Below the pieces are notes generated by a model. That model was given only the letters and a program-made list of their open reading frames with translations. It searched no databases and was not told where the DNA came from. From assembly GCF_002931075.1 (NCBI RefSeq), contig NZ_PSTQ01000001.1, positions 1 to 64,000 on the forward strand: a stretch of DNA of 64,000 bases, read 5' to 3'. Below are positions 740-34,337 of this stretch, piece by piece; positions within the stretch are counted from its first letter, which is position 1, and each line of letters begins with the position of its first letter. The position numbers were made by a program, and so were the translations under genes. The DNA comes from Pseudoclavibacter sp. AY1F1. GTDB taxonomy: Bacteria > Actinomycetota > Actinomycetes > Actinomycetales > Microbacteriaceae.

Positions 740-3700
740 TTTTCCGCGTCGAGTCGTCGGCACAACTCGCCCCGTCCGGGCCGAAAGCCCGGTATGCGGC
801 GAACGTCGCGGCGATCCGCCTCGCGTTCCAGCTGCGGGACGAAGAGCGGGCCGCGACCCCAGCCGAGCAGCAGCTCCTGGCACGGTACTCCGGTTGGGGT
901 GCCGTGCCAGGCGTGTTTAATCCCGTCGACGGGGTCTGGGGCGATGAGTACACGGAGTTGCGTGAGCTTCTCAGCCAAGATGCGTGGGCGCAAGCGCGTC
1001 GCACGACCTTGAATGCGCACTTTACCTCGCCGGAATTCACGACGGCCATGTGGGATGGATTGCGTGAGCTCGGCTTCGACAACGGGCGGGTGCTCGAGCC
1101 TGGATCCGGGCTCGGCACGTTCATCGGCACCGCGCCCGACGGGGTTCGCATGACGGGCGTGGAGCTCGATGCGACCACCGCGCTCATCAGTCGCTTGCTG
1201 CAGCCGCAGGCAGAGATCCGCACAGCGAGTTTCGCGGATGTGCGATTCCCTGATGGCTACTTCGATGCGACGATCGGCAACGTTCCCTTCGGCCAGGTGA
1301 AGCTGCGCGACGCGCTCCACAATCCTGGCCGCGCGCTGTCGCTGCACAATCACTTCCTCGCCAAGTCCTTGCACCTGACCCGCCCGGGTGGCATGGTTGT
1401 GGCGCTCACGAGCCGCCACACGCTCGATGCCGCCGACGATTCCGCCAGGCGTCGTCTCTATGAGCTCGGAGACCTGGTGGGCGCGGTCCGCCTCCCCGAG
1501 CGAGCGCACAAGGAGTTGGCCGGGACCGACGTCATCACCGACGTGCTCGTGTTCCGCCGCCGCGAGGAGGGCACCGAACGCGGAGACGCGCGCTGGCTGA
1601 CCGTGGCCGACATCGACACCGAGGGAGACGTGCCGGTGGTGATGAACCGGTACTTCCACGCGCACCCCGAGCACGTCCTCGGTCACGTGTCCGCGGACAT
1701 CGGCCGCTTCGGCCCGGAGCTGCGAGTCGTGGCCGAGAACGCGTCGGACGCGGCCCCGCTGCGGGAGGCGCTGTCCGGCATCGCCCGGACGGCGGTCATG
1801 GCCGGTCACGGCATGACCGCCCGGACACCGGACGCGGACATGAGCGCGGACACGGCCATGACCGACGATCTGACCGCAGCCCCAGAAGGAACGTGGGAGG
1901 GCACGCTCGTTGAGCAGGATGGCCGATTCTTCGAGGTGACCGGTGGTCACCTCGCCCCGGTCAAAGTGGCCAAGGGCGCGCTGACCGAGGTGCGCAGCCT
2001 CGTGGCCATGCGGGACCTGTCCCGCGAGCTGGTGACCCTCGAAGCAGAAACACTGGAGGACACCGCGGAGCTGGCCGAGCTCCGCGCCGAGCTGCGGACC
2101 ACGTACGAGTCGCACCTGGCCGCGTACGGTCCAGTGAACCGCATCAAGCTCATCGAGCTCAAGAGCGTCGACCCGGACACGGGTGAGCCGCGCGTGCAGC
2201 GCCGGACGCCTCCCGCGACGCGCGCGTTCCGGCAAGACCCGGGAGCGGCGCTCGTGTTCGCGCTCGAGAACTACGACGAGCAGGAACAACGTGCCACGCC
2301 CGCGGGCTTGTTGCTTGGACGTGTTCGCGCCCCGCGTCCGGTGGTCACGAGCGTGGACACGCCCGCGGACGCGGTGGCCGTAAGCCTTGACCGGCATGGC
2401 CGCATCGACGTGGGGACGATAGCCGGCCTTTTGGGCGTCGGCGAGGAGTCAGCGCGCTCGCAGCTCGACGGCCTCGCGTTTGAGGATCCCGCGGACAACG
2501 TGCTGCAGCCCCGGGCGGAGTACCTGTCCGGGAACGTCCGCACCAAGCTGCGTGAGGCGAGAGCTGCCGCGTTGGGGGAGCCGCGCTTCCAGATCAACGT
2601 CGCGGCGCTTGAGCGCGTGCAACCAACCCCGCTCGGCGTTGAGGACGTCTACCCGCAGGTCGGGGCGTCATGGATTGACTCGGAAACGTTCCAGGAGTTC
2701 CTGCAGGCGCACTCCAATGACCGGAACGCGCGTGTGGAGCGACTGGGGGCCTCCGAGTGGCGCGTCACGGGAGCCACGTTCGGTGTCGCGAACACCGACG
2801 AGTACGGCACGGCTCGTCGCCCGTTCGGCAAGCTCTTCGGCTCGCTCCTCAACATGAGCGAAATCAAAGTCACGGACCGAGACCCAGACGGGCGCGAGAT
2901 CCCGAACCCAGAAGAGACCGCAGCCGCACTGGAGAAGGCCGACGAGATCCGCGAGAAGTTCCAGGACTGGGTGTTCGATGACCCGGAACGTGCTTCCCGG
3001 CTCCTGGCGATCTACAACGAGCGGTTCAACGCGATCGCGCTGCGGGACTACTCCACAGAAGGGCAGGCGCTGCAGCTGCCTGGCTTGGCGGAGACGTTCA
3101 CACCGCATCCGCATCAGCGGGCTGCGGTCGCTCGCATGATCGCGGAGCCCACGGTCGGGCTCTTCCATGAGGTCGGGGCTGGCAAGACCGCCGAGATGGT
3201 GATTGGCACCATGGAGCTGCGCCGCCTCGGGTTCGTGACCAAACCCGTCGTCGTGGTGCCGAACCACATGCTCGAGCAGTTCTCCCGCGAATGGCTCCAG
3301 CTCTACCCGTCAGCGCGCGTCCTCGCCGCCGAGTCGGGAGACGTGACGAAGGAGAACAGGCGCAAGTTCGTCGCGCGAGCGGTCACGAACCCGTGGGACG
3401 CGATCATCATGACCCGCACCGCGTTCAAGGGCATCCCCGTCTCGCCCGAGTGGGAAGACACCTACAGCCGCCGCGAGCTCGCCGTGCAGTCTTCCTACCT
3501 CGACCGTGCCGTCGAGTCCGGGTCCATGACGATCAAGGAAGCCGAAGACGCCCGCAGCAAGCTCGAACAGGAGCTCGCGAAGAAGGATCCGCTTGTGCGT
3601 GATCTCGGTGTCGCGACGTTCGAGCAGATGGGCATCGACTACCTAGTGGTCGATGAGATGCATGACTTCAAGGGGCTCGCGATCGGCAGCAAACTCACGG

Positions 3701-5676
3701 GCGCGAACATCCCCGCCGTGTCGGGTCGCGCCACCGACCTGCACATGAAGATGGAGCTGCTGCGCGCTACCAGCGAGACGGGCCGTATCGCGACCGTGGC
3801 CACGGCCACGCCGCTCTCGAACTCGCTGGTCGAGGCGTACACGATGCAGCGCTACCTGCGCCCCGACCTGCTCGAGGAAGCAGGCGTGCACGACTTCGAG
3901 GCGTGGGCGGCGACCTTCGGGGAGCTGCACACGGAGATGGAAGTCGACGTCGCGGGTGGCATGAAGACGAAAACGCGTCTGAGTCGGTTCAAGAACCTGC
4001 CCGAAATGCTGCGCCTCTGGCGGGTCGCTGGCGACGTCAAGACCGCCGCGGACCTGAACCTCCCCACTCCCGAGCTCGCGCTCAACAGCAAGGGGCAGGC
4101 GCGCCCCGAGATGGTGATCGTCCCGGCCTCTCCCGCCGTGCGGGAGTACATCGGGGAGCTGCGCGTCCGCATCGACAAGCTCACCCGTGCAGATAAGAGC
4201 GACAACATGCTCCGCATCAGCTCCGACGGCCGCAAGGCCGCGCTGGACGCGGAACTCGTGGGCCTCTCCGACGACGGGGCCGAGACGAAGATCGACCGCG
4301 CCGTGGAGAACATCGCCCGCATCTACCAGGACAACGCCGGGAACTCGTACGCGGATCCCGACACTGGGAACGAGGCAGCGCACAAGGGTGCGCTGCAGAT
4401 CGTGTTCCTGGACCTGGGCACGCCGAACAAGGACCGCGGCTGGTCCGTGTACGAGAAGATGCGCGACCGGCTCGCGGCCGCGGGCGTGCCCCGGTCGGAG
4501 ATCGCGTTCGTCCAGGACGCGAAGGGCAGCGCCAAGAAGGCGGCACTCTTCAAGGCTGCCCGCGACGGGCAGGTGTCGGTGCTGTTCGGGTCGACGGAGA
4601 CGATGGGCGTCGGCACCAACGTGCAGCGCCGCGCGATCGCGCTCCACGACATCGACTGCCCCTGGCGCCCATCCGACCTGCAGCAGCGGGCCGGACGCAT
4701 CATGCGCCAGGGCAACCAGAACGACGTCGTGCAGCACTACCGGTACGCGACGTCCCACTCCTTCGACGCGTTCATGTGGCAGAAGCAGGAGCAGAAGGGG
4801 CGCTTCATCGCGCAAGCCATGCGTGGGGATGCTCGCGTGCGAGACCTCGAGGACATCGGCACCGCCGAGCTTGAAGCGGGCGAAGCGAAGGCGCTGGCCA
4901 CGGGGAACCCGAAGCTCGTGCAGCACGCGCAACTGCGCACCGACGTGACGAAGCTCCGCCGCCTCGAGCGAGCACACGCCCAATCCCAAGCAACGCTGCG
5001 CATGACTGTCGACAACGCGCGAGCACGCGTCTCCCGGCTCGAGCGGGAGATCGAGCAGTTGGAAGCAGCCTTGCCTCACATGCGCGAGCTCGACGGCGAT
5101 CGCTTCAGCATGACTCTCGGGCGAGGCACCTTCTCGAAGCGCACCGAGGCAGGGCAGCAACTCGTGCGGCTCTTCCATCGCGGCGGGATCCCACAGGGAC
5201 GTGGCGGATACAGCGCGTCATCCGCGCGCGCTGCCGTGGGGGAGCTCAGCGGTATGACCGTGCTCGCATCCCAGGGCCGCGACTACGGGCAACGCCTCGT
5301 GTACCTGGAGCTGCAGGACGTTCCCGGCAGCGAAGTCTCCGTCGACGCGGAGCGGTTCCTGCAGAGCCCGGAAGGCGCGGTCACCCGTCTCGCGAACCGC
5401 GTTGCCGCGATCCCTGCAGGGCTGGCCGAGCGACGCCTCGACCGGGACGAGAAGCACCGAGTCGCCACAGAAGCCAAGGAACGCATCGGCTTGCCCTTCC
5501 GCCGAGCTGACGAGCTCCGCGACAAGTGGGCCGCGTTCCAAGCCCTGAACAAGGAACTCGCCCGCGAAGCAGCCCGCCCCAAGACTCCCGAAGAGCGTCC
5601 CGCTCGCCCGGTCGACATCCACGCCGACCACACCCACACCAGACCCGTCAGCGGCCCCGCTGGCGCGTCCATCTGA
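607..5676 (+). CDS. DarB-like N6-adenine methylase fused to SNF2-type helicase (element anti-restriction protein)
   Basis: A very large protein (about 1,690 aa from the GTG at 607; start uncertain). The N-terminal methylase carries motif I EPGSGLGTF at 1096 and a NVPFG catalytic motif at 1279, the variant of NPPF usual in this plasmid/phage family. The SF2 helicase part has Walker A HEVGAGKT at 3166, Walker B DEMH at 3652, TATPLSN at 3802 and motif VI starting QQRAGRIMRQGN at 4681, followed by a coiled-coil region. Homologues such as P1 DarB protect incoming DNA from restriction in cis. The frame is open back to position 16, but the part before about 700 has shadow-type composition. The tail (ARPVDIHADH, ending GPAGASI) recurs in other element proteins. 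It starts an operon with the next two genes. Confidence 0.85.
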   Translation: MGSDRAGALPGDGLGSGSTRLERTVQRGAAGAAPRDAASSASAVVFRVESSAQLAPSGPKARYAANVAAIRLAFQLRDEERAATPAEQQLLARYSGWGAVPGVFNPVDGVWGDEYTELRELLSQDAWAQARRTTLNAHFTSPEFTTAMWDGLRELGFDNGRVLEPGSGLGTFIGTAPDGVRMTGVELDATTALISRLLQPQAEIRTASFADVRFPDGYFDATIGNVPFGQVKLRDALHNPGRALSLHNHFLAKSLHLTRPGGMVVALTSRHTLDAADDSARRRLYELGDLVGAVRLPERAHKELAGTDVITDVLVFRRREEGTERGDARWLTVADIDTEGDVPVVMNRYFHAHPEHVLGHVSADIGRFGPELRVVAENASDAAPLREALSGIARTAVMAGHGMTARTPDADMSADTAMTDDLTAAPEGTWEGTLVEQDGRFFEVTGGHLAPVKVAKGALTEVRSLVAMRDLSRELVTLEAETLEDTAELAELRAELRTTYESHLAAYGPVNRIKLIELKSVDPDTGEPRVQRRTPPATRAFRQDPGAALVFALENYDEQEQRATPAGLLLGRVRAPRPVVTSVDTPADAVAVSLDRHGRIDVGTIAGLLGVGEESARSQLDGLAFEDPADNVLQPRAEYLSGNVRTKLREARAAALGEPRFQINVAALERVQPTPLGVEDVYPQVGASWIDSETFQEFLQAHSNDRNARVERLGASEWRVTGATFGVANTDEYGTARRPFGKLFGSLLNMSEIKVTDRDPDGREIPNPEETAAALEKADEIREKFQDWVFDDPERASRLLAIYNERFNAIALRDYSTEGQALQLPGLAETFTPHPHQRAAVARMIAEPTVGLFHEVGAGKTAEMVIGTMELRRLGFVTKPVVVVPNHMLEQFSREWLQLYPSARVLAAESGDVTKENRRKFVARAVTNPWDAIIMTRTAFKGIPVSPEWEDTYSRRELAVQSSYLDRAVESGSMTIKEAEDARSKLEQELAKKDPLVRDLGVATFEQMGIDYLVVDEMHDFKGLAIGSKLTGANIPAVSGRATDLHMKMELLRATSETGRIATVATATPLSNSLVEAYTMQRYLRPDLLEEAGVHDFEAWAATFGELHTEMEVDVAGGMKTKTRLSRFKNLPEMLRLWRVAGDVKTAADLNLPTPELALNSKGQARPEMVIVPASPAVREYIGELRVRIDKLTRADKSDNMLRISSDGRKAALDAELVGLSDDGAETKIDRAVENIARIYQDNAGNSYADPDTGNEAAHKGALQIVFLDLGTPNKDRGWSVYEKMRDRLAAAGVPRSEIAFVQDAKGSAKKAALFKAARDGQVSVLFGSTETMGVGTNVQRRAIALHDIDCPWRPSDLQQRAGRIMRQGNQNDVVQHYRYATSHSFDAFMWQKQEQKGRFIAQAMRGDARVRDLEDIGTAELEAGEAKALATGNPKLVQHAQLRTDVTKLRRLERAHAQSQATLRMTVDNARARVSRLEREIEQLEAALPHMRELDGDRFSMTLGRGTFSKRTEAGQQLVRLFHRGGIPQGRGGYSASSARAAVGELSGMTVLASQGRDYGQRLVYLELQDVPGSEVSVDAERFLQSPEGAVTRLANRVAAIPAGLAERRLDRDEKHRVATEAKERIGLPFRRADELRDKWAAFQALNKELAREAARPKTPEERPARPVDIHADHTHTRPVSGPAGASI

Positions 5677-5687
5677 AAGGAACCCTC

Positions 5688-6947
5688 ATGAGCCGTCGAT
5701 ACCGCAAAGCGGTCGAACAGTACCTCACCACCCACGCACCCACAGCCCTCAAGCGGTCGAACGATCCGAAGCAGCTCATCAACACGTACGCCGCAGAGAT
5801 CGCTGACGCGGTGAGAGACGACGTGGACTTCGTGGCGGTGAACAACCTCGAGCGACCCACGCGCGAACTGCGTACCCGCGTCGAGCGTGTCGTGTTCCCC
5901 GTCATCATGACGCGCGTCGCGCCACCCGAGCTCGAGAAGGCCAAGGGCATCGTGGAAGCCGAGACCTTCTACATCGCGCTCTCCGACACCATCACCAGCG
6001 TTCCGACGCCGATGCGGTTGCGCGCGATGGAGGCCTACGACACGTTCCGGTGGGACACGAACCAGCCCGTGTTCCTCGTGAGCGGCGAGGTCGCGACCTC
6101 TCGGGAGCAGATCGACCAGGACCACCAGCTGCAGCGAGCGGCACTGCAGCAGTTGCGGCAACTCGACGGGCAGAGCCTCGCCGACACGGAGGACTTGATC
6201 ACAGCGGCCCTCGGCCCGGACGGGGCGAAAGGGCCGTGGGGGTCCGCGACGTGGGCCGGGACGGTTCGTGTCATGACGCAGGAGATCGCTGCAGGGACCT
6301 TCGAGACGCCATCGACTCCGCCGCAGCTCGTGCGCTCGGAACTCGAGCAAGCCGGTGAATCGGAGATGTACGCCGGTCGCAACGAGGTAGGCGACCGCTT
6401 CCGGCTCCGCACCCACCTCTACAACCTCGCAAACCCAGGCCAAGAGATAGCCGAGCGTATGCCGGAGGCGCTGCGGGCGACAACAGCCGCGACCCTGGAC
6501 TACGACTTCGTGCAATACACCGTGCAGACCTTCCAACGCGACGCGGATCCCGCAACGCGAGCTGCCGTGTCCGTGCTGCAAACGATCCGCCCAGAGCGCG
6601 TGGAGCAGCTTCGCGACCTGATCCGGTACGAGCACGTCGCGCCGGGAGCTGACCACCAGCGACTGTCCACAGCAAAACTCCTGGAATCGATCAAGGAGGA
6701 AATCGACGGGAACACCTTCACGGCCCCCAGTCAACGTCCGCACACGCCCGCCTTCGGGGACCACCACGGTCACCTCGACAACGACGAGCGGGACGAATAC
6801 TGGGAACGAGCTGCAGTCGACTACGCGCGTGACGTGTTCCGTGCCGACGCCTACGAGCGCAGCACGGCCAGACCCAACGACATCCACGCGACAGCAAGCA
6901 TTCCGCGCCCAGCATCGTCCGCGGCCGTCGCCGCCCCAGGCCTCTGA
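5688..6947 (+). CDS. Unknown element protein (419 aa) with the shared C-terminal tail
   Basis: The ATG at 5688 lies 11 bases after the methylase-helicase stop and is preceded by GAAAGGA, so the two are almost certainly co-transcribed. The 419-residue product is soluble, helical and rich in charged residues, with no recognisable catalytic motif, signal peptide or membrane segment. Its C-terminus (ARPNDIHA at 6867-6890, then a Pro/Ala-rich end) closely resembles the tails of the methylase-helicase (ARPVDIHA) and the relaxase (ARPVDVHA). By position and tail I infer a partner protein of the methylase-helicase, perhaps playing the part DarA plays for DarB; the family itself is not recognised. Confidence 0.75.
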   Translation: MSRRYRKAVEQYLTTHAPTALKRSNDPKQLINTYAAEIADAVRDDVDFVAVNNLERPTRELRTRVERVVFPVIMTRVAPPELEKAKGIVEAETFYIALSDTITSVPTPMRLRAMEAYDTFRWDTNQPVFLVSGEVATSREQIDQDHQLQRAALQQLRQLDGQSLADTEDLITAALGPDGAKGPWGSATWAGTVRVMTQEIAAGTFETPSTPPQLVRSELEQAGESEMYAGRNEVGDRFRLRTHLYNLANPGQEIAERMPEALRATTAATLDYDFVQYTVQTFQRDADPATRAAVSVLQTIRPERVEQLRDLIRYEHVAPGADHQRLSTAKLLESIKEEIDGNTFTAPSQRPHTPAFGDHHGHLDNDERDEYWERAAVDYARDVFRADAYERSTARPNDIHATASIPRPASSAAVAAPGL

Positions 6948-6958
6948 GAGAGACGCGC

Positions 6959-8083
6959 ATGATCACCAAAGCCAACGCCGCGGTCGGACGCACAGTTCGC
7001 AGCTACTTCACCGACGGCCCCGCCGTCGACGGATTCGAGGACGTCGAAGACCAGGAGAACTTCCTGCACCACGTCGCGTGGAGCGCCACCCGAGAGATGC
7101 GCGCACACGCCGTCGAATACGTGGCACGTCGAGGCCAGACCGGAGACCTCAAGGACGTGAAGCGCAGCGCTGGACGCCGCGCACTGCGTCTCGCCGTCCC
7201 CATCTGGCTCGAGTCCCGCTACCCGAGGCACGACCTGGCCCGCACAGCGCTCCCCGCGCAGTTACGGCAGTCCGAGCGCGAGGGAGGCATGCCCACCGAG
7301 CAACTGCTCCACTTGCGCCACGAGCTCCGCCTGGAACAGTTCACGCACAACGAGCAGATCCTGCGAACGTTGCCGCCCGCGAACACATTCGGAGCTCGTC
7401 CCGGCCCGTACGCGATTGGCAAACGCGAAATGGAAGCCGTGACGCTCGACTGGCTGGACGCCGCCCACCAGGCGGAGGTCACTTCCGTGCGGCTCCTCAG
7501 CGCGCTCGACACGCACCAGATCTCGGACCTCGGTGGACTCGTGCGCTTCTCGAGCGGCCTCGCCCGAACCGAGAGCGCGCCCTGGTCGACGTACGCGCAC
7601 GTCCTGCAGGAAGAACGCGCGCGAGGTAGCCTCGCCGCCTACCTCGTCTCTCGGATTCCGGAAGTCGCGCCCGTGACCCCCACCGTGAAGGCGCTGTCGG
7701 ACGAGTTCCGCGCGTACGCGCACAACACCAGCCTTTCGCGGCTCGCGCTCGTCAACAACAACGAACGCATTGAGCGCCGAGAAGCGGCACAGGTGGAAAC
7801 GATGAACAACGCTCGTGGATACGGCATTCTTCAGTTCGAGCTCAACGGACCCGCTCGCTCCATCGCCATGGGTACCAAGCTGCTGCGAGGAGACGAGGCC
7901 GAATCGGACCGTCTCCGCGACGTTCTCCGTACGCCGTTCGCTCGAGCAGAAGAGCTGAGGCAAGCGACGAGAGGCCTCGACCTCCACAAGCTCGCTAAAG
8001 CGTCGGCGGGCATTCGGTTCCGAAGCGATGCGCGGTCACCCGTGCCCGCACCCGCTACTGGACACGCAGGAGCGTCGTTGTAG
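6959..8083 (+). CDS. Unknown element protein (374 aa), third gene of the methylase-helicase operon
   Basis: Starts 11 bases after the previous stop, with GAGAGACGC upstream. The soluble, mostly helical product has no motif I can name. Its end, PVPAPATGHAGASL, resembles the last residues of the methylase-helicase (PVSGPAGASI). The C-terminal two thirds, from about residue 140, is duplicated as a broken copy at 9588-10301. That copy retains long identical stretches such as APWSTYAHVLQEERARG. A strong hairpin at 8141-8175 follows the stop, marking the end of the operon. Confidence 0.75.
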   Translation: MITKANAAVGRTVRSYFTDGPAVDGFEDVEDQENFLHHVAWSATREMRAHAVEYVARRGQTGDLKDVKRSAGRRALRLAVPIWLESRYPRHDLARTALPAQLRQSEREGGMPTEQLLHLRHELRLEQFTHNEQILRTLPPANTFGARPGPYAIGKREMEAVTLDWLDAAHQAEVTSVRLLSALDTHQISDLGGLVRFSSGLARTESAPWSTYAHVLQEERARGSLAAYLVSRIPEVAPVTPTVKALSDEFRAYAHNTSLSRLALVNNNERIERREAAQVETMNNARGYGILQFELNGPARSIAMGTKLLRGDEAESDRLRDVLRTPFARAEELRQATRGLDLHKLAKASAGIRFRSDARSPVPAPATGHAGASL

Positions 8084-8140
8084 TCGTTGTGTGAGCGCAT
8101 GCGCCGGCGGCGCGATCGCCAGTGCGATCGCACAACTACA

Positions 8141-8175
8141 CGCGGCCCCGAAACCACCCTGGTTTCGGGGCCGCG
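8141..8175 (+). terminator. Perfect 16-bp stem terminator closing the methylase-helicase operon
   Basis: Arms 8141-8156 and 8160-8175 are perfectly complementary around a CCC loop. There is no T-tract, as is common in high-GC actinobacteria. It lies 57 bases after the stop of the 374-aa gene. Confidence 0.8.
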
Positions 8176-8221
8176 TTGTCGATGGCCTGCGAATGTCGGT
8201 GCAGACTCCTACAGTGTCGTC

Positions 8222-9067
8222 ATGGACACTCAGGGGGCATCGTTGATCACATGGTCTTCGCTGCGATGGGCGAGCGGACGCGCCACCGTCATGGCGGGCA
8301 CGCTGCTCGCTGCCCTGGCCCTGCTGGCGTGGCTGGTCGGTGGGACCGTGGTCGACGTGCTGCGAGACACACTTGGATGGTGGCTCGCCGGATTCGGCGC
8401 GGCCGCGCTCGTGTGTGCAGTCGTGACCGAGATTGCGATGTGGTGGATGCGCGGCGGATCCCGGTGGGGGTACTTCGCGAGCGACGAAGCCAAACTCGAC
8501 TACCTCGAGTCCGTCATGCGGCTCTGCCCCTCGGATGCCAGGCTTGTGCGGGTGGGACGCCTCGACGGGGCGTACCCAACGGGCTCGCGCTGCGCCGTGA
8601 AGGACGTGGACGGGGACGAGTCATCATCGTGGTTCGCGGAGGCATGGCCCACGCGGGGAGACGTACTCCTCGTGCGAGGCGCATACGGTCACGGACACCA
8701 CTGGGGAGACTCCAACGTGCTCTACGTGAACGAAGTCCTCACGCGCCTCCCGTCCTGGGTCTGGGGAGCGCTCCGGCGCAGCGCGCGCCGGGAGGCCCGG
8801 GAGGCCCGGCAATGGCAGCGCGCCGAACGGCGTGAGCAGGAAGAACTTGCCAGGGACGCGAAGTACGCAGTCCAGATCCCAGAAGCTGCACCCATACCGG
8901 GTGCGGACTTCACGGAGAGGGACGCACCGCGAGTGGAGTTCGCCCCAACCGAGCACGATGAAACCAGACCTTGGCCCGCCGTGCAGTTCTGTCCGACCCT
9001 GGCTCTCATTCCGGAGGTCGAACCATCGTCAGACAGGCCCTGGCTCCGGGGGCGGCCGCTCTCTTGA
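8222..9067 (+). CDS. Membrane-anchored unknown protein (281 aa, two N-terminal membrane helices)
   Basis: Start taken at the ATG at 8222, just before the two hydrophobic stretches (about residues 22-45 and 52-75); no clear ribosome-binding site is visible and the open frame runs further upstream. After the helices comes a cytoplasmic domain with a Trp/His-rich patch (GAYGHGHHWGDSNVLYVNE), then a charged Arg/Glu-rich helix and a Pro-rich end. No family recognised. It may be an element accessory protein; it lacks the shared C-terminal tail. Its last bases border the helicase debris on the opposite strand. Confidence 0.6.
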   Translation: MDTQGASLITWSSLRWASGRATVMAGTLLAALALLAWLVGGTVVDVLRDTLGWWLAGFGAAALVCAVVTEIAMWWMRGGSRWGYFASDEAKLDYLESVMRLCPSDARLVRVGRLDGAYPTGSRCAVKDVDGDESSSWFAEAWPTRGDVLLVRGAYGHGHHWGDSNVLYVNEVLTRLPSWVWGALRRSARREAREARQWQRAERREQEELARDAKYAVQIPEAAPIPGADFTERDAPRVEFAPTEHDETRPWPAVQFCPTLALIPEVEPSSDRPWLRGRPLS

Positions 9068-9129
9068 GTCCGCGTATCGGCAGCAGGCGAAGGGGCGGAC
9101 GGGGCTGGTTCCGTGCGGACGTTTGGCGG

Positions 9130-9575
9130 CGACCAGTAGGGATGCGCGCACCCTCCGGCGCTGTCGAGGACGAACGCGACACTCTGCTCAGCGCGGGTTA
9201 CACCGACGTAGAGCTTCGCTGCCGATAATTCCTCAAGCGGTTCGCCCTTTTGCAGTAGCTTCCGCATTTTCTCTGTGGGAAGGATCAGTATGCGTTCTCG
9301 CGTCAGGCCCTTTGCGGTGCCAAAGGTGAGGAAGTCGAGGTGGCTGTGTGTCGTGGCTGATCTGCTGTCCCATCGCAGTGGTTGGGGGCGAATTGCTTCA
9401 TGTACGCGTCAACGTCTTCGGTGCGGACAAGGAACACGCGGTCGTGGTCAGTACGCGGGTGTTCCGCGAGCGTGTCCGTTTGAACCCCCACTCGTTAGAG
9501 AAGAGGTCGTCGGAGAGCGCAGCAAGTTCGGGGTGGCACCGCCACGTCTCGTGCCGCTGGGTGATCGTCGACCGT
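9130..9575 (-). pseudogene. Frameshifted C-terminal remnant of a UvrD/Rep-like helicase
   Basis: Reading the minus strand, three frames in succession give helicase-like sequence. First comes RCHPELAALSDDLF (about 9500-9550), then DRVFLVRTEDVDAYMKQFAP (about 9395-9460), then DFLTFGTAKGLTRERILILP followed by KLYVGVTRAEQSVAFVLD (about 9160-9340). The last piece matches motifs V and VI of UvrD-family SF1 helicases. The frame changes near 9480 and 9350 and the absent N-terminal half show it is not functional. Its upstream end is joined directly to the duplicated gene fragment at 9588. Such helicases are often defence cargo on mobile elements, but which system it came from cannot be told. Confidence 0.7.
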
Positions 9576-9587
9576 TGTTTGTGTTCC

Positions 9588-10301
9588 CCTGCCGCCCACG
9601 AACGCATTCGGGTCTCGCCCGGGCTCCTACGCGATCGGCAAGCGGGAGACACCGGTGCAGACGCCGGATTGGCTGGATGCTGCCTATCAGTCGGAACTCG
9701 CGAGCGTGCGACTCCTGCGCGACCTCGACGCACATCAGTGTTCAGACCTCTACGGTCTCGTGCGCTTCTCCAGCAGCCTCGACCTGCCTGAAACCGCACC
9801 CTGGTCGACGTACGCGCACGTTCTGCAGGAAGAACGCGCGCGAGGTGGCCTCGCCGCCTACCTCGTCTCTCGGATTCCGGAAGTCGCGCCCGTGACCCCC
9901 GCCGTGAAGGCACTGTCCGATGAGTTCCGCGCCTACGCGCACAACACCAGCCTCTCCCGGCTCGCGCTCGTCAACAACAACAACCGCATCGAGCACCAAG
10001 AAGCGGCAGAGCGGACACGATGAACAACGCTCGCGGATACGGCATCCTCCAGTTCGAGCTCAACGGGCCGGCCCGCTCCATCGCCATGGGCAACAAACTG
10101 CGCCGCCAAGACGAGGCAGAGTCAGGCCGCCTCAGCGACGTCCTCCGGACTCCGTTCGCGCGAGCAGAGGAGCTGCGGCAAGCGACGAGAGGCCCCGATC
10201 TCCACAGGTTCGCCAAAGCGTCGACGGGCATTCGTTTTCGGAACGAGCCGCGGGCGCCCGTGCCCGCGACTGACCAGGCGGGAGCATTCGTGTATTGGTA
10301 G
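9588..10301 (+). pseudogene. Truncated, frameshifted duplicate of the 6,959-8,083 gene
   Basis: Homology to the 374-aa gene starts at the position equivalent to 7367 and runs to its 3' end, at roughly 85-90 percent nucleotide identity by eye. The 5' third is missing. A one-base deletion near 10008-10012 shifts the frame just before MNNARGYGILQFELNGPARS, so the copy reads as two pieces (to 10023, then 10020-10301). The tail is altered to end QAGAFVYW instead of HAGASL. Sequence upstream of 9588 is unrelated (helicase debris). This is a recombination scar rather than a working gene, unless the second piece is translated from its own ATG at 10020. Confidence 0.8.
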
Positions 10302-10306
10302 GAGGA

Positions 10307-10414
10307 ATGAATGTGCAGAAACGCTACTGGGTCCAGTTGAACATGGGCACGGGGCCTGAATACTTACGTCGCTTCGGCCCGCTTTCTCACAGCGAGTCAC
10401 ATCTCGGCGAGTAA
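10307..10414 (+). CDS. Short ORF (35 aa) after the duplicate, possible gene remnant
   Basis: The ATG at 10307 overlaps the end of a strong GGAGG sequence, so spacing is tight. The peptide starts MNVQKRYWVQLNMGTGPEYL, which looks like the beginning of a real protein, and stops after 35 codons. It may be the first exon-like stump of a gene that once followed the 374-aa gene copy. No family recognised. Confidence 0.3.
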   Translation: MNVQKRYWVQLNMGTGPEYLRRFGPLSHSESHLGE

Positions 10415-10489
10415 GAAGGATCCGGTGCTGACTAGACGCTCAGCCTTCACGTTTTCATGTCGGGATCATCAGCGGATAACCCTTCGGGG

Positions 10490-11449
10490 TCAAGCCGTGA
10501 TTTCGAAGTCCTCTTTCGACTTGCTTTCGACGGTTTCCGTCGCGAGACTGGTCATGGGGAGGGATTCCTTAGATCCCGGCCCGTTGATTAGTCGGCGCAG
10601 AGCTCTTGCGGAACGGAAACCGGATAGGGGGGCCACGCGACGAATGTCACTGGCTGAGGAAGCAGTACCGTCAAGCAAATCCAACGCAATCTGCAGTCTG
10701 GTTTGGCGAAGCCTCGTCCCCGCCGCGGCTCCGGTGTGCTCGAAGATTCGGTGCAGCTGGGACTTGGAACAATTCAAGGCAAGGGCGAGTTCTGTTGTCG
10801 AGAAATCTGGGTCGCGGGCGTTAGCGGAAATCAGTTGTGCTGCCCTCTCGAACATCGGGTGGCGCGCCTGACTGGGGGAAATGGGCAGCAGCGGTGTGCT
10901 CGATGCGGCAAAGATGAGATGCTCTATGCCCTTTTTCCAAGATTTATAGGACTCCTCGCGGCCTTCGCTGCTCGGCCGTTCGTTGAGCGAGGCCATCACG
11001 CCAGCTTGCAGGATCGGCCAGTATGCCCCTTCCGCGGTCGATACTGCAGTGGAAATGAGCGCTTCCCAACGCGTTCCAGCGAAGCGCGCCGACGGCACGC
11101 CAAAAAAGAGACGCGCGTGGCTTTTTTCGGATGAGATTGTGACTGGATCGGCCGGACCGTGGACGTAGAAGTCTCCAGGCGCCAGAACTCGGCTCAGGAT
11201 TCGAGACTGCAAGTGAACAGTTCCAGTGAGAATGAAGGTCATGAAGGTGAGTCCCGGCGCGCAGGCGCCGGGATTCACAGTAAGTCTCATGGGGGAGTTC
11301 CATAGGCGACCCAGCGTGAACGTTGGTGACCAGATGATGTCGGCGTATACGCGAACGTCTTTGCTTAGGGGCTCCGCGGACCATCCCTGGTCGGCTAGCC
11401 ATGCCAAGGCCTCAGTGCCTTGGAGCATGGTGTTGAATTCGGAACGCAC
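10490..11449 (-). CDS. AraC-family transcriptional regulator
   Basis: GTG start at 11449 with GAAGGA five bases upstream. The 319-residue protein has a cupin-like N-terminal sensing region (about 1-170) and a C-terminal AraC double helix-turn-helix (about 205-290). The latter includes DFSTTELALALNCSKSQLHRIFE and the second-helix region ending in GFRSARALRRLI. The ligand and targets cannot be deduced. GC content at third positions is lower than in the neighbouring operon, and no partner gene adjoins it, so it looks like separately acquired cargo or a moron-type gene in the element. Confidence 0.8.
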   Translation of the reverse strand: MRSEFNTMLQGTEALAWLADQGWSAEPLSKDVRVYADIIWSPTFTLGRLWNSPMRLTVNPGACAPGLTFMTFILTGTVHLQSRILSRVLAPGDFYVHGPADPVTISSEKSHARLFFGVPSARFAGTRWEALISTAVSTAEGAYWPILQAGVMASLNERPSSEGREESYKSWKKGIEHLIFAASSTPLLPISPSQARHPMFERAAQLISANARDPDFSTTELALALNCSKSQLHRIFEHTGAAAGTRLRQTRLQIALDLLDGTASSASDIRRVAPLSGFRSARALRRLINGPGSKESLPMTSLATETVESKSKEDFEITA

Positions 11450-11740
11450 AAGCTTCCTTCGGGGTGGGGAGATGGAAACTAAACCAGAGAGGGGGGAGAG
11501 GCAGCGCGTGACGTGGGGAGCGCCCAGCTGTCAGAGAAATCTTCGCTGATCGACGAGTTGGATGCGGCCTCTTTGGGAAAAAACTGCAGATTTTTGAATG
11601 ATTTTGGATGTTTTGGCCCAGATCAGTACCACATTTGCACGTAGATGGCAATCCTAGCGGCGTGATGGGCTCGTGAGCAGTAGTGTGCTGGCTGCAGGCG
11701 TGCCTCGCCGGGGGCGGTTGTCTGGGGTCATTATTCAAGA
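11450..11740. other. Intergenic region, AT-richer than surroundings
   Basis: Upstream of the AraC gene and of the 11,741 ORF. It contains an A/T-rich patch at about 11575-11615 in an otherwise GC-rich element, a plausible divergent promoter region. No convincing gene seen. Confidence 0.5.
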
Positions 11741-12256
11741 TTGGGTGTCATCATTCCGTATCCGCTCTTTGCGCATGGCCGACTGACTTGGTCTGCGGAC
11801 GTGGCAATTTTCGCGCCGGGGATGCGTGAGATTGAGACCTCAGTGTTGAGTCTTCAACTCCGGGTGGGGCCCTCAGCTTCAGCTGTAAAGATGAATTCGA
11901 AGTGGGATGACGGCGTCGGGATTGTGGTTGCTGGAGACGGGACCAACGCCGGTCGCTCCATTGGGCCCCGGAGCTGGTTTCGGCTTCTGTCAAGAACGTC
12001 GCCAACTATGGGGAACGAAAGTGCAGTGATGCTCGTCCAGTGGCGACATGAATCCCCTGGCGTTGCGCTTGAGTCCATCACGAAGGAAGATCAGGGTAGT
12101 GTGCTGCCCTCAGAGTGGGCAGCGCTGGTTTCTACCGTGATGGCTTCGTTCGACGTCGTGCTGCCTGTCGGAGATGGCCGCGAGCATTGGGAGATCTCGA
12201 TCCTCGAACTCACGAAGTCAGCGTTGTTGTCGAGTAACAGATCCGGGCGTGGATAG
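11741..12256 (+). CDS. Unknown protein (171 aa), TTG start
   Basis: The frame gives a protein-like sequence with beta-strand-like alternation (for example SVLSLQLRVGPSASAVKMNS and GIVVAGDGTNAGRSIGPRSW) and no competing frame of similar quality. The only start near the 5' end is TTG at 11741 with no strong ribosome-binding site, so the true start is uncertain. No signal peptide, membrane helix or known motif. Base composition is lower in GC than the conjugation genes, suggesting cargo. Confidence 0.45.
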   Translation: MGVIIPYPLFAHGRLTWSADVAIFAPGMREIETSVLSLQLRVGPSASAVKMNSKWDDGVGIVVAGDGTNAGRSIGPRSWFRLLSRTSPTMGNESAVMLVQWRHESPGVALESITKEDQGSVLPSEWAALVSTVMASFDVVLPVGDGREHWEISILELTKSALLSSNRSGRG

Positions 12257-12841
12257 CTAGGCTTCTCGTCGAGCTTCTGCCCTACTCTGGCGGGGCGTCG
12301 GGGGCGGCGGTTAGGTGGCGTTAGTTTGCCGTGCGTGTGCCGATGGTCCTCGTCTTCTGTCCAAGTTTGCGTGTCCGAAGCGCCGGGAAGCTTCTCGAGA
12401 TGTACCGTCGCCGTCCGAAAAGAGATTCTCTGACACGGGAAGCGAGCAAAGGCCGGTCCTCTGCGGGATGTCGGGGGAGAATGCCGAAGACCACGGGCCG
12501 CCCGGAGTACGGCGTCGTAGTGGCTCCCGTGGGAGATCTCGGACCGTCCAAGTGGCTCGAGCATCAGGCTGCACGCTGGTTCGGCTTCTTCGCGCAGCCC
12601 ACTTCAGGTGAGACCTGGTAGCCAACGCGAACGCGAAGATCCCATGACGGCGTTCACTGGAGGCTCGCTCGACGAGTGCGATCGGCCGATTGCACCGAGC
12701 GAGGGGGGAGATCCGACACGGTGCCAGGGTGAGCGACACGATGATGTCGCGATTCTGTCATCTCTGGTCTGTGCCCAGGGCTGGAATCCGCGCGAGTTTC
12801 CCGCGTCGCACGTATTCCAGCCCCGTAGGCCGGGGTAACCG
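12257..12841. other. Gene-poor stretch without a convincing gene
   Basis: Several open frames exist on both strands but none has protein-like composition and a good start. The stretch holds an inverted repeat CTGGAAT/ATTCCAG (12781-12787 and 12814-12820). A small hairpin at 12821-12835 sits right after the stop of the minus-strand glycine-rich gene and may act as its terminator. Confidence 0.5.
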
Positions 12842-13828
12842 CTACCAGGTTAGTTTCACTGTGGCCACAGGCAAGGGCGGAAGGGAATCTGTTGCCGAGT
12901 AGGTGCCGATTGCGCCAGGTAGCGTGGCCGCACCCTTGATAAAGCTCGACCCGGCACCACCGCCCGACCCGACAGTGTTGCCTGGGTTGTTGACTGGATC
13001 TGGCCTCCACGCTGAGCCGCCGCCGCCGCCGGTGTAACCGCCGCCGCCGCCGCCGCCACCACCCGCAAACTGTCCGTTGGAGCCACCGACGCCGCCGTTA
13101 CCGGCGGGCGCGTTACCTCCGGTCTGACCGCTCTGGCCGTTGCTCGACACCTGGCCTCCGACTCCTCCGGTCGCGCCTCCTCCGAGACCGCCGGACGTGG
13201 TCTGGTTGCCGATGCGGCCACCCGTTCCGCCCCCAGCGTTCAGCTGTCCGCTACCCCCGGTACCGGCGGCTGTGGGCGTGACGCTGCCGCTGCCGTTCGC
13301 GCCGCCGCCGCCACCGCCAGCGACCACCAGTAGGGTCGATCCGATTCGTATGGCGCTGGAGCCGCCCCCATCGCCTCCGTCCCGAACTCCCGAGCGCAGA
13401 CCGCCGGCTCCCCCGAAGCTCCAGCCACTGCTCGCGCTTGCACCCGTGGTTCCACGACCTTGACCCCGGCCCCCCACCCAGTATTCGAGGACGTGCGGGG
13501 TGGGGGATGCAACGAGAGTAATTGTGCCTCTGATGATCGCGCCGCTTCCCGCATAGCCACCGGCGTCGCCACCACCACCACCAATTAGCGCGTAGTCGAT
13601 CTTGGTGACGCAGCCTGGAATCTGGACGGTCCGTGCGATGTTGCCCGTGGAGCGCGTCGAGTTCTCAAACGATCCGTGCTCGTTGCAAGTACTGGCAGCA
13701 GCGAATGGAGTGCTGACAGCACTTGCGATGACTGGCACAGTCCATGCTGCCCCAGTAACGAGAGTGCGGCGCCCAACTCGTGCCGTCGAGTTCCTGATAC
13801 TCGTGTGCTCGTGGTTCTCTTCCTGCAT
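12842..13828 (-). CDS. Tat-exported glycine-rich surface protein
   Basis: A 328-residue protein. The N-terminus has a twin-arginine signal (VGRRTLVTGAAWTVPVIAS, about residues 18-36) with an Ala-rich cleavage region near 45, so it should be exported folded through Tat. The mature part contains IDYALIGGGGG, LEYWVGGRGQ and LLVVAGGGGGG, the pattern of the Gly_rich (PF12810-like) beta-sandwich domain. It is followed by long Gly/Asn/Thr-rich stretches from about 150 to 300. There is no sortase signal or C-terminal membrane helix. Probably a cell-wall-associated or released surface protein; function unknown. It stands alone, next to gene-poor DNA. Confidence 0.75.
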   Translation of the reverse strand: MQEENHEHTSIRNSTARVGRRTLVTGAAWTVPVIASAVSTPFAAASTCNEHGSFENSTRSTGNIARTVQIPGCVTKIDYALIGGGGGDAGGYAGSGAIIRGTITLVASPTPHVLEYWVGGRGQGRGTTGASASSGWSFGGAGGLRSGVRDGGDGGGSSAIRIGSTLLVVAGGGGGGANGSGSVTPTAAGTGGSGQLNAGGGTGGRIGNQTTSGGLGGGATGGVGGQVSSNGQSGQTGGNAPAGNGGVGGSNGQFAGGGGGGGGGYTGGGGGSAWRPDPVNNPGNTVGSGGGAGSSFIKGAATLPGAIGTYSATDSLPPLPVATVKLTW

Positions 13829-14834
13829 GTTGCTCCTCGGATCCTAGTCGTGCCCGCGCGGTCCATCCGAAAACGATCAATCAGCGTTCTTGCGCGGGAA
13901 GCCGTCGATTCAAGCTAGGTCGCAGGCGTACGTGGATAGGCGATTCTGGGACGTATACGCACCTTTTCGGCCTCTTCTTGCCGGAGGCGGAGATGTCGAG
14001 CTGCCCTGGTGCCGGACTACGGGCGAGGTCGATTCCACACCGGCCCCTTCATCGGTACAACTCCAGTTTCGGACGGCCGCGGCTGTGTGCCTTGCAGACG
14101 AGTCATGCCCGATCTGAGCGGGGGCAGCTGTGGCGAAAAGTCCCGGCTTCTCACAACTCTGTTCCAGGGTCCGCCTCGAATGCCGCTGATCTCGGGGGTA
14201 TGTGTTTCTCTAGTTCCCGGGCCAGCAGCCGGTCGTGCATCTGGGGAGTTCACGACTTCTCCTCGCGACGCTTAGCCGTTGCGATATCGCTCGCTGTGTC
14301 CCGCCCCTCGTGGAAGGTTCCCCCTTCACGAGGGGCATTTCATTGTCTGAGTCGATCCGGTCGCTCCTGCAGGTCTTGGTATCGACTGGATCGGGTCAAC
14401 GGTCGCTGTATTTGCTAGGGCAGGGGTCCTGGGGGTCGCGGGCTGGCGCTTTGAAGTGGGCAGCAGCGTGGTTGGACCGCCTGAAAGGCTGGCGACACTC
14501 ATGGCACAAACGTTCCCTCGACCGCGTGCAAACGTGGAGTACACCGCTCGTGTTCCCTGCGTCCGGACGTGATCGGATGGAGCCCGAGGTGAGCAGACGG
14601 CAAGCGCCTCTGGCGCGTGTAATGGCTCCCCGCCGCCCCTGGATATGTGAGGTGCGGCGAGCAGATAGAACGGAACAGTCTCAAGGCGAAGCGCTTTCGG
14701 GGCTCCGCTCGATCGTCGGGGCGGAGAACGGGCCAGCGCTGAATCCTGCGCTTTGTTGGACCTCGATCTGATCCAGCTGGGTCAGTGCTGGTGACCATGT
14801 ATCTGGGGAGTTGGATCCCCCATGCGGCCAGTAC
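13829..14834. other. One-kilobase gene-poor region
   Basis: No frame has both a start and convincing protein-like composition. One plus-strand frame at about 14351-14565 reads protein-like (IDWIGSTVAVFARAGVLGV and on) but follows a stop and has no start codon, so it may be a gene remnant. A hairpin at 14303-14336 is described separately. Confidence 0.5.
14303..14336. terminator. Hairpin with 14-bp stem and one bulge
   Basis: Arms 14303-14317 and 14323-14336 pair (GCCCCTCGTG-GAAGG with CCTTCACGAGGGGC) with one unpaired G. It stands in gene-poor DNA, so what it terminates is unclear; possibly a lost gene. Confidence 0.5.
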
Positions 14835-17800
14835 TCACGTCTTGAGTTCGGATGACCCTCGTGGCCCTTGGTCCAAGACCGCGCGGTTGACGTGAGCGGC
14901 ATGGACATCGACGGGTCGCGCGCCAACGCCTCGGTGTTGTCGCGTTTCCAGAGCACGTTCCTGGTTCTCTCTGGTCGACGTACCCGCGTCAATCAGACGC
15001 TCACGGGTAACGCGTTCAGCGTGGATCATGTCGAGCCTGCGTAGCGCTGGCATCGAGGCCTTCGTCGCTTCACGTTCGAGCCCGCGTGCTTCGTTCACCT
15101 GGACCTGGAGGGCATCGATGTCCGCAAACTCCGGTCCCTCGCAGCGGCGCTTGTCTGCGTTCGCGTCGTTGCGGGTCTGACGGAGCTGCCGCAGCTCGAC
15201 TTCGAGGCGGTCGGCAGTGTCCTTGATGGCCTGCAGCTCCGCGTGCGTGTGCGCCGGGAGGATCTGCGCCTCGGCGGCGTCGAGGTCGAGCAGGTGCCCC
15301 GCGGGCCGCTGCTGCCAAGGCGCGGGCGCAAAGACACCTTCGCGGGCCGAGATCCCGAGCTCGCGGTGCAGCGCCCGGTAGTTGTCGTGCAGGTTGGCTT
15401 CGAGGTCGCCGCGGCGCAGCGACTCCACGAGCTGCCGTTCCGCGGTGGCGTCGTCGCTCGCGACGAGGAATGCTTCATTGACGCGTTTCCCGCGGGTGAG
15501 CCCGACGTAGAGGCCGGCGGCGTCGACGCCGGGGCCGACGATGGAGCCGTGGACGGTTTCGCCCTGGATGCCGTGGATCGTGGATGCGTAGGCGAGGGCG
15601 AGCTTGTCGGCCGCGTAGTCCGCGTCGACCGTGGTGGTGAGTCCCTTCTGATCGACGGACTCGAGGAGCAGCTTCCCGGACAGTGTCTTCTTGCGGACGG
15701 TCCACACCTGACGGTTCTCTACGTTCTGGTCGCTGTCGTTCTGCCGGGTTTGCACGACGTCGCCCGCGTAGATGACCGACCCGTCCGTGGTGCTGGACAG
15801 GACCTTGCCGGTTACCTGTCCGCGGACGATGCGTTCTTCTTGGATGAGGTCGTTGAGGGTGACCGCTTCCTCGTTCGTGGCCACACACAACGCGGCCCGG
15901 TCCTTGTGTCCGGCCAACTCTAGGTAGCGGTCACGCATGGCCGCGTGCAGCTCGGTCATGTTGGCCGCTGTCCGGACGTGACCTGTGGTCACGAGCTCGT
16001 GCGCCACCGCGTCCGGCCCGTCGCCTGACCGCATGCGCAGCGTCAGGTCCGCGTAGGCCGTGTCCGTCTCGCCGTCTCCGGTGCGGAAGCGGTGCACGGA
16101 TTCGAGATCGACGTGCGTGTCCGCGTAGCGCTGGCCGAGCGCCATCGCCCCGGTGTGGCCGACCGGGTTCACCTGGGCGGGATCCCCGACGAGCGCGATC
16201 CCGGCGCCCGTCTCGGCAGTCACCTGGAGCAGCGCGTGCATGGTGTGGAGGTCGACCATGCCCGCCTCGTCCACGACGATGCGCGTCTTCCGGCCAACGA
16301 CGGCGCTGTCCTTCGGTCCCCGGTAGGCGTGGCCGTCTTTGGACATGGGGTCTTTCTGGCCGATGGCCAGGCGCTGCCAGACTGGCCGTCCCGTGTCTTT
16401 GTCCGCGCTCCACCGGAACCCGTACTGGAACAGCAGCGCGTGCAGGCTGGTCGCGTCAGCTCCCGTCTCGCGTCCGGCCACGGACGACGCCTTCTTCGTC
16501 GGCGCGACGATGAGCACCTTCCGGCCCTGGCCGGACAGGGACGCCCTGGCCACCTTCAGCATGGTCGTCTTGCCCGCACCCGCGGGGCCGATGACCGTGA
16601 CCAGGCGCGACGAACCAGCGATCGCGCACGCTGCCGCGGTCTGCTGCTCGTCCAGGCCGTGCTCGCCGCCGATCTTCGTGTTGCTGGCGAGCTGGGCGAT
16701 GAGGTGCGTCGCCACGTTCTTCCCGCGCTTCGCCTGCGCCCGCATGCCCTCATCGACGTCGCGCTTCAGCGCGGCGGTTTCGGCCAGCATGTACCGGCCA
16801 ACCCCACCCGGCACGTCGATGGTGTCCGCTGCCAAATCGATCAGGTAGTGGCCGCGTGCCCGGTCGAGGGCAGCGTCCACCGCGGACGCGAGCACGTCGC
16901 GATCGCCGGTGGACACGACGCGAGCGACCGCGCGGACCGCGCCCGCGCGCAGCGTGAAGTCCGAGAACCGGCCACTTGACGAGGTGGACCGGGAGTCGGC
17001 GTCCGCGATGGCCAGCCTGGCCACGCGGTCAATGTCCGCCCCGGACACGCGGACAGCCCGGTCAGTGACCGGGGGAGTGACCGGCTTCCCCTGCTTCAGC
17101 AGGGCCGGGTCGAGGTCAGTGAGCTCGCGGCGGACACTGTCCGCCCAATCCTCCTCGGACACCATGTCCGGCTTCTCGGGACGTCCGACCGCCCACGCGC
17201 GCCGATCAATGGCCATCTCGTCATTGACCGTCGGCTCCTGTCCGGGGTGGTCAGCCTGCCACTCGGCCAGGAAGCGGGCCTTGGCCGCTTCGATCTGGTT
17301 TGACCGCTTCGAGAACGCCCGGACAAGATGCTGGAGCTGCGAGATCTCACCCGTGGCCGGGTCGATCGTGAAGCCCTTGGCCGCGAGCGTGGCCACCCAT
17401 TCGGTGTCCGTGGCCGCGGCCAGCTGGCCTTCGGCGTTGACAAGGGTTTGAAAGCGCAGCATTGTCCGGGAGTCGAGGTTTGACCAGCGGCCATCCTGGC
17501 CGAGGACACGGGCGTTCAACCACATGTGGGTGTGGGCGTGCGGGTCGAGGGAGCGGGAGCGGGCGTGCTTCAGCTCGACGACCTCGATCTGCGCGAGGTC
17601 CATGCTGATGCGGCCTTGCGCGCCGCGGCGCGAGTTCAGCTCCGTGCGCCACATGTCGATCGTGCGATAGCGGATCCGCTCCTGCAGAGCGTCGAACGCG
17701 GCAGCGATCTCCGGGTCCAGCAGTGCCGCGAGCGACAGCGTTTTCGGTGCGTTCACGGTCGCATCGAACAGCAGATCCGCATCTGGGCCCTGCATCTGGT

Positions 17801-18068
17801 AGCCGCGGTGCACGCCCGTGGCCGGGTCGCTGCCCGCGACCCACGCTTTCAGCTGCTCCACGCCCAGCTCGTCGGCGGCGATGCCCGCTTCGGTGGCGGT
17901 GAAGCGGGTCACGGTCGATCCCGCGTGGGCATACCCGATCGCGGCGTCGACCGACGCGAGCCGATCGGCTCGAGCGCCGTCGCAGACGCCGTCGAAGGCG
18001 TAGTGGACCGCGGCTCGCAGGCCATGGCCTGCGACGCCCCGCTTCCATCTCGCTACTCCGCCGCGCAC
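14835..18068 (-). CDS. MobF (TrwC/TraA-type) conjugative relaxase-helicase
   Basis: About 1,077 residues from the GTG at 18068. That start was chosen because VRGGV resembles the N-termini of actinobacterial MobF relaxases; the frame stays open further upstream. The relaxase domain has a three-histidine metal site (His 177, 179, 181 in PHAHTHMW). The SF1B helicase has Walker A GPAGAGKTTML (about residue 493), Walker B VVDEAGM, LVGDPAQVNPVG, ASTIHGIQGETVHG and YVGLTRGK. It nicks DNA at oriT and unwinds the transferred strand. The C-terminus carries ARPVDVHAAH, matching the tail of the methylase-helicase. The nicking tyrosine could not be assigned with certainty because the N-terminus is divergent. 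Confidence 0.9.
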   Translation of the reverse strand: MRGGVARWKRGVAGHGLRAAVHYAFDGVCDGARADRLASVDAAIGYAHAGSTVTRFTATEAGIAADELGVEQLKAWVAGSDPATGVHRGYQMQGPDADLLFDATVNAPKTLSLAALLDPEIAAAFDALQERIRYRTIDMWRTELNSRRGAQGRISMDLAQIEVVELKHARSRSLDPHAHTHMWLNARVLGQDGRWSNLDSRTMLRFQTLVNAEGQLAAATDTEWVATLAAKGFTIDPATGEISQLQHLVRAFSKRSNQIEAAKARFLAEWQADHPGQEPTVNDEMAIDRRAWAVGRPEKPDMVSEEDWADSVRRELTDLDPALLKQGKPVTPPVTDRAVRVSGADIDRVARLAIADADSRSTSSSGRFSDFTLRAGAVRAVARVVSTGDRDVLASAVDAALDRARGHYLIDLAADTIDVPGGVGRYMLAETAALKRDVDEGMRAQAKRGKNVATHLIAQLASNTKIGGEHGLDEQQTAAACAIAGSSRLVTVIGPAGAGKTTMLKVARASLSGQGRKVLIVAPTKKASSVAGRETGADATSLHALLFQYGFRWSADKDTGRPVWQRLAIGQKDPMSKDGHAYRGPKDSAVVGRKTRIVVDEAGMVDLHTMHALLQVTAETGAGIALVGDPAQVNPVGHTGAMALGQRYADTHVDLESVHRFRTGDGETDTAYADLTLRMRSGDGPDAVAHELVTTGHVRTAANMTELHAAMRDRYLELAGHKDRAALCVATNEEAVTLNDLIQEERIVRGQVTGKVLSSTTDGSVIYAGDVVQTRQNDSDQNVENRQVWTVRKKTLSGKLLLESVDQKGLTTTVDADYAADKLALAYASTIHGIQGETVHGSIVGPGVDAAGLYVGLTRGKRVNEAFLVASDDATAERQLVESLRRGDLEANLHDNYRALHRELGISAREGVFAPAPWQQRPAGHLLDLDAAEAQILPAHTHAELQAIKDTADRLEVELRQLRQTRNDANADKRRCEGPEFADIDALQVQVNEARGLEREATKASMPALRRLDMIHAERVTRERLIDAGTSTRENQERALETRQHRGVGARPVDVHAAHVNRAVLDQGPRGSSELKT

Positions 18069-18436
18069 GCACTGAGCGTAGCCCACACTAAAAGTGCCTG
18101 CGTGCCCTACATCCCTTCTCTCTTCGTGTCCGTCACCTTCCCTCCTCCTAGTTCCCTCGTCCTCTTCACTCCTTCCTCCCTGATTTCGTCGTTCCTCGTT
18201 CTCTCTCGTCGTTCCCATTCGTTCGCTGCTCTTGCTTCCTGGTGTCCTCTCCGCGTGACTTTGACCGTTCATGTCTCGACGTGAATCGAGGCGGTTCGGG
18301 CGTCGGTGACGCGTTCCGACCGAGTCGACGCATAGGAGGGGAGGGAGAGCGCAGGGCTCGTCCTCCGGGAACGCCCAGCGCCGACCCGGGAATACCGTCG
18401 GGCGCGGCAATGCGGCCCGGCGAGGAGAGGTCAGTC
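18069..18436. other. Divergent upstream region of the relaxase with a long polypyrimidine tract
   Basis: From about 18105 to 18250 the plus strand is overwhelmingly C and T, so the relaxase coding strand reads mostly A and G here. The relaxase frame is open through it, giving a low-complexity Arg/Glu/Gly-rich sequence that I take as untranslated leader. The rest of the stretch contains the presumed divergent promoters for the relaxase and the 59-aa gene. Confidence 0.5.
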
Positions 18437-34163: not shown

Positions 34164-34208
34164 AGTTCCCTCTTCGCCACCTCGGTGGCGGTGAGGGGCG
34201 GCAGAGCG

Positions 34209-34261: not shown

Positions 34262-34337
34262 CGGTCTTGGGTCGCTCGTCGGCGTCAGCCGTACTCGCGC
34301 AATGCCGCGCCGGCGTCCTCGACGATGACGTCCGCCC

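Follow-up and report, generated by a model that had tools for sequence, protein, structure and literature searches.

VbhT of the Bartonella plasmid pVbh bears the BID signal of its own relaxase and is translocated with conjugation (PMC5675462). In the F plasmid conjutome, the C-terminal translocation signals are described as motifs of charged or hydrophobic character, carried by proteins that are otherwise unrelated (PMC11288057), and for polyvalent proteins, including DarB and ArdC of conjugative elements, transfer alongside the DNA has been proposed (PMC5512222). Here, we describe an integrated element of Pseudoclavibacter sp. AY1F1 (contig NZ_PSTQ01000001.1, positions 1 to 64,000; this whole stretch of 64,000 nucleotides is called the window), in which a DarB-like protein, two further proteins (proteins 2 and 3) and a MobF relaxase have related C-terminal tails. 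We propose, with a probability of roughly three in four, that such tails would act as C-terminal type IV secretion signals with element-specific dialects, by which protective proteins and toxins may be exported alongside the relaxase.

By analogy, VbhT is the closest precedent in action. Like VbhT with its BID signal, a putatively VbhT-like Fic protein encoded beside a VbhA-family antitoxin shares a tail with the relaxase on one of the plasmids compared here; however, BID is a folded domain, whereas the part shared here comprises just the 4-7 residues at the tip, borne by a linker. No BID family was among the Pfam hits (E <= 0.01) of the four window proteins. As in the type IV substrates of the F conjutome (PMC11288057), the putative signal is C-terminal and on unrelated proteins, but signals vary within one system there, whereas in Actinobacteria the tips of one element match each other and those of different elements do not. 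The cargo families are those of the polyvalent proteins (PMC5512222), whose carriers had been recognised from their domains and genomic neighbourhood, with no shared C-terminal signal described in the available parts of that paper. Signals of this kind are known; what looks new is the form seen here and the range of cargo that carries it. No description of a shared substrate signal for actinobacterial conjugation was found in the literature searched, which included the available parts of PMC5512222, PMC11288057, PMC5675462 and PMC12857230 and had most subscription papers and all bioRxiv preprints outside its scope.

Four tailed proteins in the window

A preliminary description of the sequence had reported one tail on four proteins with unrelated bodies and different codon use in the tails. 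All four quoted tails lie where they had been placed (Table 1). Without the tails no pair of bodies was related (best E 0.68), and the box 1 codons indeed differ between carriers. The single tail resolved into two parts, namely box 1 (ARPxD[IV]HA near the C-terminus), present on the DarB-like protein, protein 2 and the relaxase, and the tip (the last 4-7 residues), present on the DarB-like protein, protein 2 and protein 3; the claim of one common tail did not hold for protein 3, which has no box, or for the window relaxase, which has no tip. Both paralogous relaxases, on contig C14 of the same genome and in genome G005 of the host's genus, have box 1 and a tip (TAGPAL and AAGLSL, respectively). 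The DarB-like protein matched the antirestriction group phrog_10089 with 1301 bits (E 0), and its relatives, at 42-50% identity, are found on plasmids and in genomes. The relaxase is of the MobF type, with TrwC relaxase and AAA helicase domains (PF08751 and PF13604) above their cut-offs, and scored 95.4 bits with the NCBIfam MobF model NF041492, just under the cut-off of 100.

Table 1. Positions of the tailed proteins, their tails and other features in the window.
Feature	Position	Strand	Remarks
DarB-like N6-methylase/superfamily 2 helicase	736..5676	+	conserved part from about 736, start uncertain; phrog_10089
DarB tail, ARPVDIHA (box 1) and GPAGASI (tip)	5596..5673	+	ends RPARPVDIHADHTHTRPVSGPAGASI; same tail on C14
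Protein 2, 419 amino acids	5688..6947	+	73% identical copy on C14
Protein 2 tail, ARPNDIHA (box 1) and AAPGL (tip)	6867..6944	+	ends ARPNDIHATASIPRPASSAAVAAPGL
Protein 3, 374 amino acids	6959..8083	+	copies in C14 and G005
Protein 3 tail, AGASL (tip), without box 1	8036..8080	+	ends SPVPAPATGHAGASL; copies end AGASM (C14) and TGASM (G005)
MobF relaxase-helicase	14835..18443	-	start uncertain; PF08751 116.3 bits, PF13604 130.5 bits
Relaxase tail, ARPVDVHA (box 1), without tip (ends SSELKT)	14838..14921	-	ends ARPVDVHAAHVNRAVLDQGPRGSSELKT
Tyrosine integrase of the element	26247..27221	-	PF00589 E 5.6e-19
Repeat like a tRNA 3' end, probable att site	27374..27396	+	also at start of C18 and of C14
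Window start, 99 bases identical to end of C18 and end of C14	1..99	not assigned	

Box 1 is private to the family of the window element

Back-translated box 1 matched three times in the window, where shuffled sequences averaged 0.04 matches and none of 100 shuffles reached three. In the 4.1-Mb genome the pattern with its leading Ala was found four times, three times in the window proteins and once in a paralogous DarB on C14, while the reversed-pattern control was found once. Without the Ala the pattern was noisy at the DNA level across whole genomes (present in 188 of 398 family genomes), and box 1 alone is therefore not diagnostic. In related elements, two NrdH proteins have comparable tails, RPVDVHA...AGASRSI in G005 and RAADVHA...AGVSRSL on contig C18, as does an AbiEii nucleotidyltransferase (L043:17275-18081, PF08843 E 3e-12), with RPRDIHA...GPQLA. 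Box 1 as a general signal was rejected. Outside the family of the window element, few open reading frames (ORFs) had P.[DE][VI]H in the last 60 residues: among the compared elements it was present on 12 of 1323 ORFs, nine of them within that family, and in the test loci on 2 of 777, one being a relaxase (L222). Box 1 is thus private to the window element family, and the tip is the general part.

Between the window and C14, the relaxases are 92% identical in the body but only 10/22 in the tail; the corresponding values are 74% and 11/23 for protein 2, and 78% and 7/16 for protein 3. Despite the divergent linkers, box 1 was retained in the relaxase and in protein 2. If the Pro/Arg/Ala-rich ends were alike merely by composition, through low-complexity drift, or by recent exchange of 3' gene ends, and had no function, generic similarity might be equal within and between loci, as was found (below); however, retention of the box while the linkers diverge, the different box codons and the enrichment of tips over ORFs of the same regions all argue against this explanation, and we consider it very improbable.

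Tips are matched between DarB and the relaxase of the same element

Among 17 elements of both MOB classes, the tips of DarB and the relaxase resembled each other more when they came from one element than when they came from different ones (p <= 1e-4). Within a MOB class the match gave p values of 0.020, 0.030 and 0.011 for the last 4, 6 and 10 residues, respectively. On MOBP elements, for example, the ends of DarB, the relaxase and the product of the gene following the relaxase are GMDR, DYGR and GPSR in L058, GFER, GIGR and GFGRG in L241, and GLEL, GMEL and GMGLG in L239. The preliminary description had put forward as a check whether the tail recurs on the relaxase and the DarB-like protein of one and the same element; it does, in matched form. 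Sharing and matching of tips within an element would look identical if the tails were docking tags that gather the relaxase, DarB and their partners at the donor-side relaxosome or coupling protein, with the relaxase alone being transported, and such a role would leave room for proteins 2 and 3, which have no known function (no match in Pfam, NCBIfam, PHROGs or PADLOC). Toxins and anti-restriction proteins, which are also among the carriers, make little sense as donor-side relaxosome parts, however, and docking without export seems unlikely, if less so than drift.

Tips on MobF elements

On the Microbacterium amylolyticum plasmid NZ_CP049254.1, DarB ends GPSLS, the zeta toxin GPVLR, Fic GPNL and the relaxase GPSLG, and the Fic gene adjoins a VbhA-family antitoxin gene. 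The motif GPx[LIVMF]x0-3-end was fixed before 60 TrwC loci of the order were fetched, and was found on 14 of 58 MobF relaxases versus 5 of 719 other ORFs (Fisher 3e-13); all five non-relaxase matches were in two loci in which the relaxase matches too. Two looser motifs gave 15/58 versus 11/719 and 17/58 versus 32/719 in the same loci, and a terminal Leu, counted post hoc, was present on 29 of the 58 relaxases and 51 of the 719 other ORFs. In addition, proteins next to GP-tipped relaxases in L225 and L230 end GPNL, GPEF, GPGLG and GPTL, the three in L225 having no Pfam match.

Some DprA and ArdC proteins adjoining relaxases end GRSL, GRSI or GRGL. DprA ended in L, I or M in 12 of 14 copies near relaxases versus 1 of 12 elsewhere; half of the near copies (seven of 14) had led to the test, and five of the other seven have such an end. 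Left out of this count are two copies whose contigs have no listed relaxase, both of which end in L, I or M. For ArdC, relaxase-like ends were found in 6 of 10 copies near a relaxase (the 10 of 30 loci where a relaxase is listed no more than 25 kb away on the contig, one of the six having prompted the check) versus 3 of 14 complete copies with no listed relaxase on the contig, with two cut rows and four copies with a farther relaxase omitted; this result is suggestive only.

Tips on MOBP elements and toxins

Six MOBP-type plasmids were chosen because they encode Fic. When their relaxases, post-relaxase proteins, Fic and AbiEii proteins are counted together, 12 of 17 have the end Gx[DEGST]R, versus 4 of 291 other ORFs. 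Among the rows listed for these plasmids it was absent from coupling proteins (2), the single-strand binding protein (1), NrdH/glutaredoxin (2) and short ArdC (5). Tips are enriched on relaxases and rare on the other ORFs of the loci compared (5/719 and 4/291), which favours the export signal of the preliminary description. Free hydrophobic C-terminal tips can also be recognised by proteases, and a hydrophobic or small-residue C-terminus could mark proteins for proteolysis in the donor or the recipient, as a degron or tail-specific protease tag. The R-ending dialect, the match to the element's own relaxase and the rarity on ORFs of the same locus would not be expected of a host protease tag, and we give this explanation little credence.

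The Fic protein of L056 scored above the cut-off with PF02661, has an annotated VbhA neighbour and shares its tip with the relaxase, although its 43 bits with the VbhT model NF045983 are far below the cut-off of 800. Four plasmids from different genera (L335, L337, L339 and L340) have the same gene order of VbhA-family antitoxin, Fic, recombinase, mobC and relaxase. On L339, two adjacent proteins without annotated function (32834-33916 and 33922-35634) end DGPER and DVGVER, and the relaxase of the same plasmid ends GAER; judging from these ends, the two proteins are candidates for new cargo. Among zeta toxins from 30 loci (L305-L334), 21 end in Arg and four have the GP motif (two of them known beforehand), some rows possibly being the wrong ORF. 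Zeta toxins often have a Pro/Arg-rich C-terminal extension, and one on the host contig C23 ends TLDHDR.

A putative type IV secretion signal with element-specific dialects

The tails are C-terminal, lie outside the catalytic domain and are found on relaxases and on other proteins. What we observed directly is that the tails exist, are shared, and are enriched on relaxases and on the other proteins described here, and that a coupling protein is encoded on an adjoining contig; from the sequences we infer tip recognition, translocation and action in the recipient. In the mechanism that we propose, a flexible Pro/Arg/Ala/Thr-rich linker after the catalytic domain would make the tip reachable, and the tip would be read by the coupling protein of the element or a neighbouring adaptor. 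The tip is a turn rich in Gly, Pro, Ala and Ser, in which a hydrophobic residue or Arg stands near the free carboxyl end. Once equipped with a tip, a protein would be loaded into the conjugation channel and exported with the relaxase-DNA complex. Each element family would have its own dialect; in the window family, the box RPxD[IV]HA precedes the tip. The export signal of the preliminary description is partly supported, by the matched tails, the relaxase enrichment and the type IV coupling protein, but the box that it singled out has given way to the last 4-7 residues as the general part.

Several results weigh against secretion by these tips. There is no tip on the window relaxase itself and no box on protein 3; the GP motif is on only about a quarter of MobF relaxases; the ArdC contrast is weak; and no tip was found on Fic of two PezT/Fic-bearing plasmids (L244 and L246). 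Furthermore, identity of the very last residue was not significant within a MOB class (9/12, p 0.18; 2/5, p 0.18), and generic tail similarity (local alignment, score >= 30) did not differ between same-locus pairs (12/698) and cross-locus pairs (471/40424). Since generic similarity does not separate the two kinds of pairs, the signal would have to be in the tip.

The set of carriers would fit the arrival of single-stranded DNA: DarB and ArdC belong to anti-restriction families, DprA and NrdH (a redox partner) are also among them, and the zeta, Fic and AbiEii toxins would have their effect in the recipient. Contrary to the preliminary description, protection is not the only role suggested for the candidate cargo, since in relatives these three kinds of toxin bear tails. 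More broadly, we lean slightly towards the view that a C-terminal postcode is common to the conjugative elements of Actinobacteria and exists in at least three dialects (on MobF elements GPx-hydrophobic and R[SG]L, on MOBP elements G-x-[DEGS]-R), that tips pass freely to new proteins, and that they mark DprA and NrdH as well as anti-restriction proteins and the zeta, Fic and AbiEii toxins; cargo would therefore be predictable from the last residues. If this is true, the zeta, Fic and AbiEii modules would be injected conjugation effectors and not plain addiction modules, the tip suggesting delivery of many plasmid toxins to recipients, and a tip readable from sequence would allow the proteins that enter the recipient with the DNA to be listed.

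Layout of the element and neighbouring genes

The integrated element is already under way at the window start and ends near 27.4 kb, with the tyrosine integrase and the tRNA-3'-end-like repeat; past its end lie LacI, amylase and phosphotransferase system genes. C14 holds a second, related element, 88% identical to the window element over the first 9 kb. The contig of G005 matches Pseudoclavibacter sp. AY1H1 (DarB 93%). C18 (18.8 kb), which shares the 99 bases with the window start, encodes a TraG/TraD coupling protein (TraG-D_C 69.7 bits) and a single-strand binding protein, with the tailed NrdH-type glutaredoxin at the right end. Because of its overlaps with the window start and with C14, we infer that C18 is part of both elements. 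Both ends of C18 overlap C14, one by the 99 bases and the other by the tRNA-like repeat region, so that the two contigs might together form a circle of some 58 kb; the second element could be circular, tandem or collapsed.

A broken second copy of protein 3 at 9587-10301, in two frames and with 75% DNA identity to the C14 gene, has no AGASL tip at its end. Between protein 3 and the relaxase lies a Gly-rich ORF of 328 amino acids (12842-13828, minus strand), whose start, RRTLVTGAAWTVPVIASAV, resembles a secretion signal.
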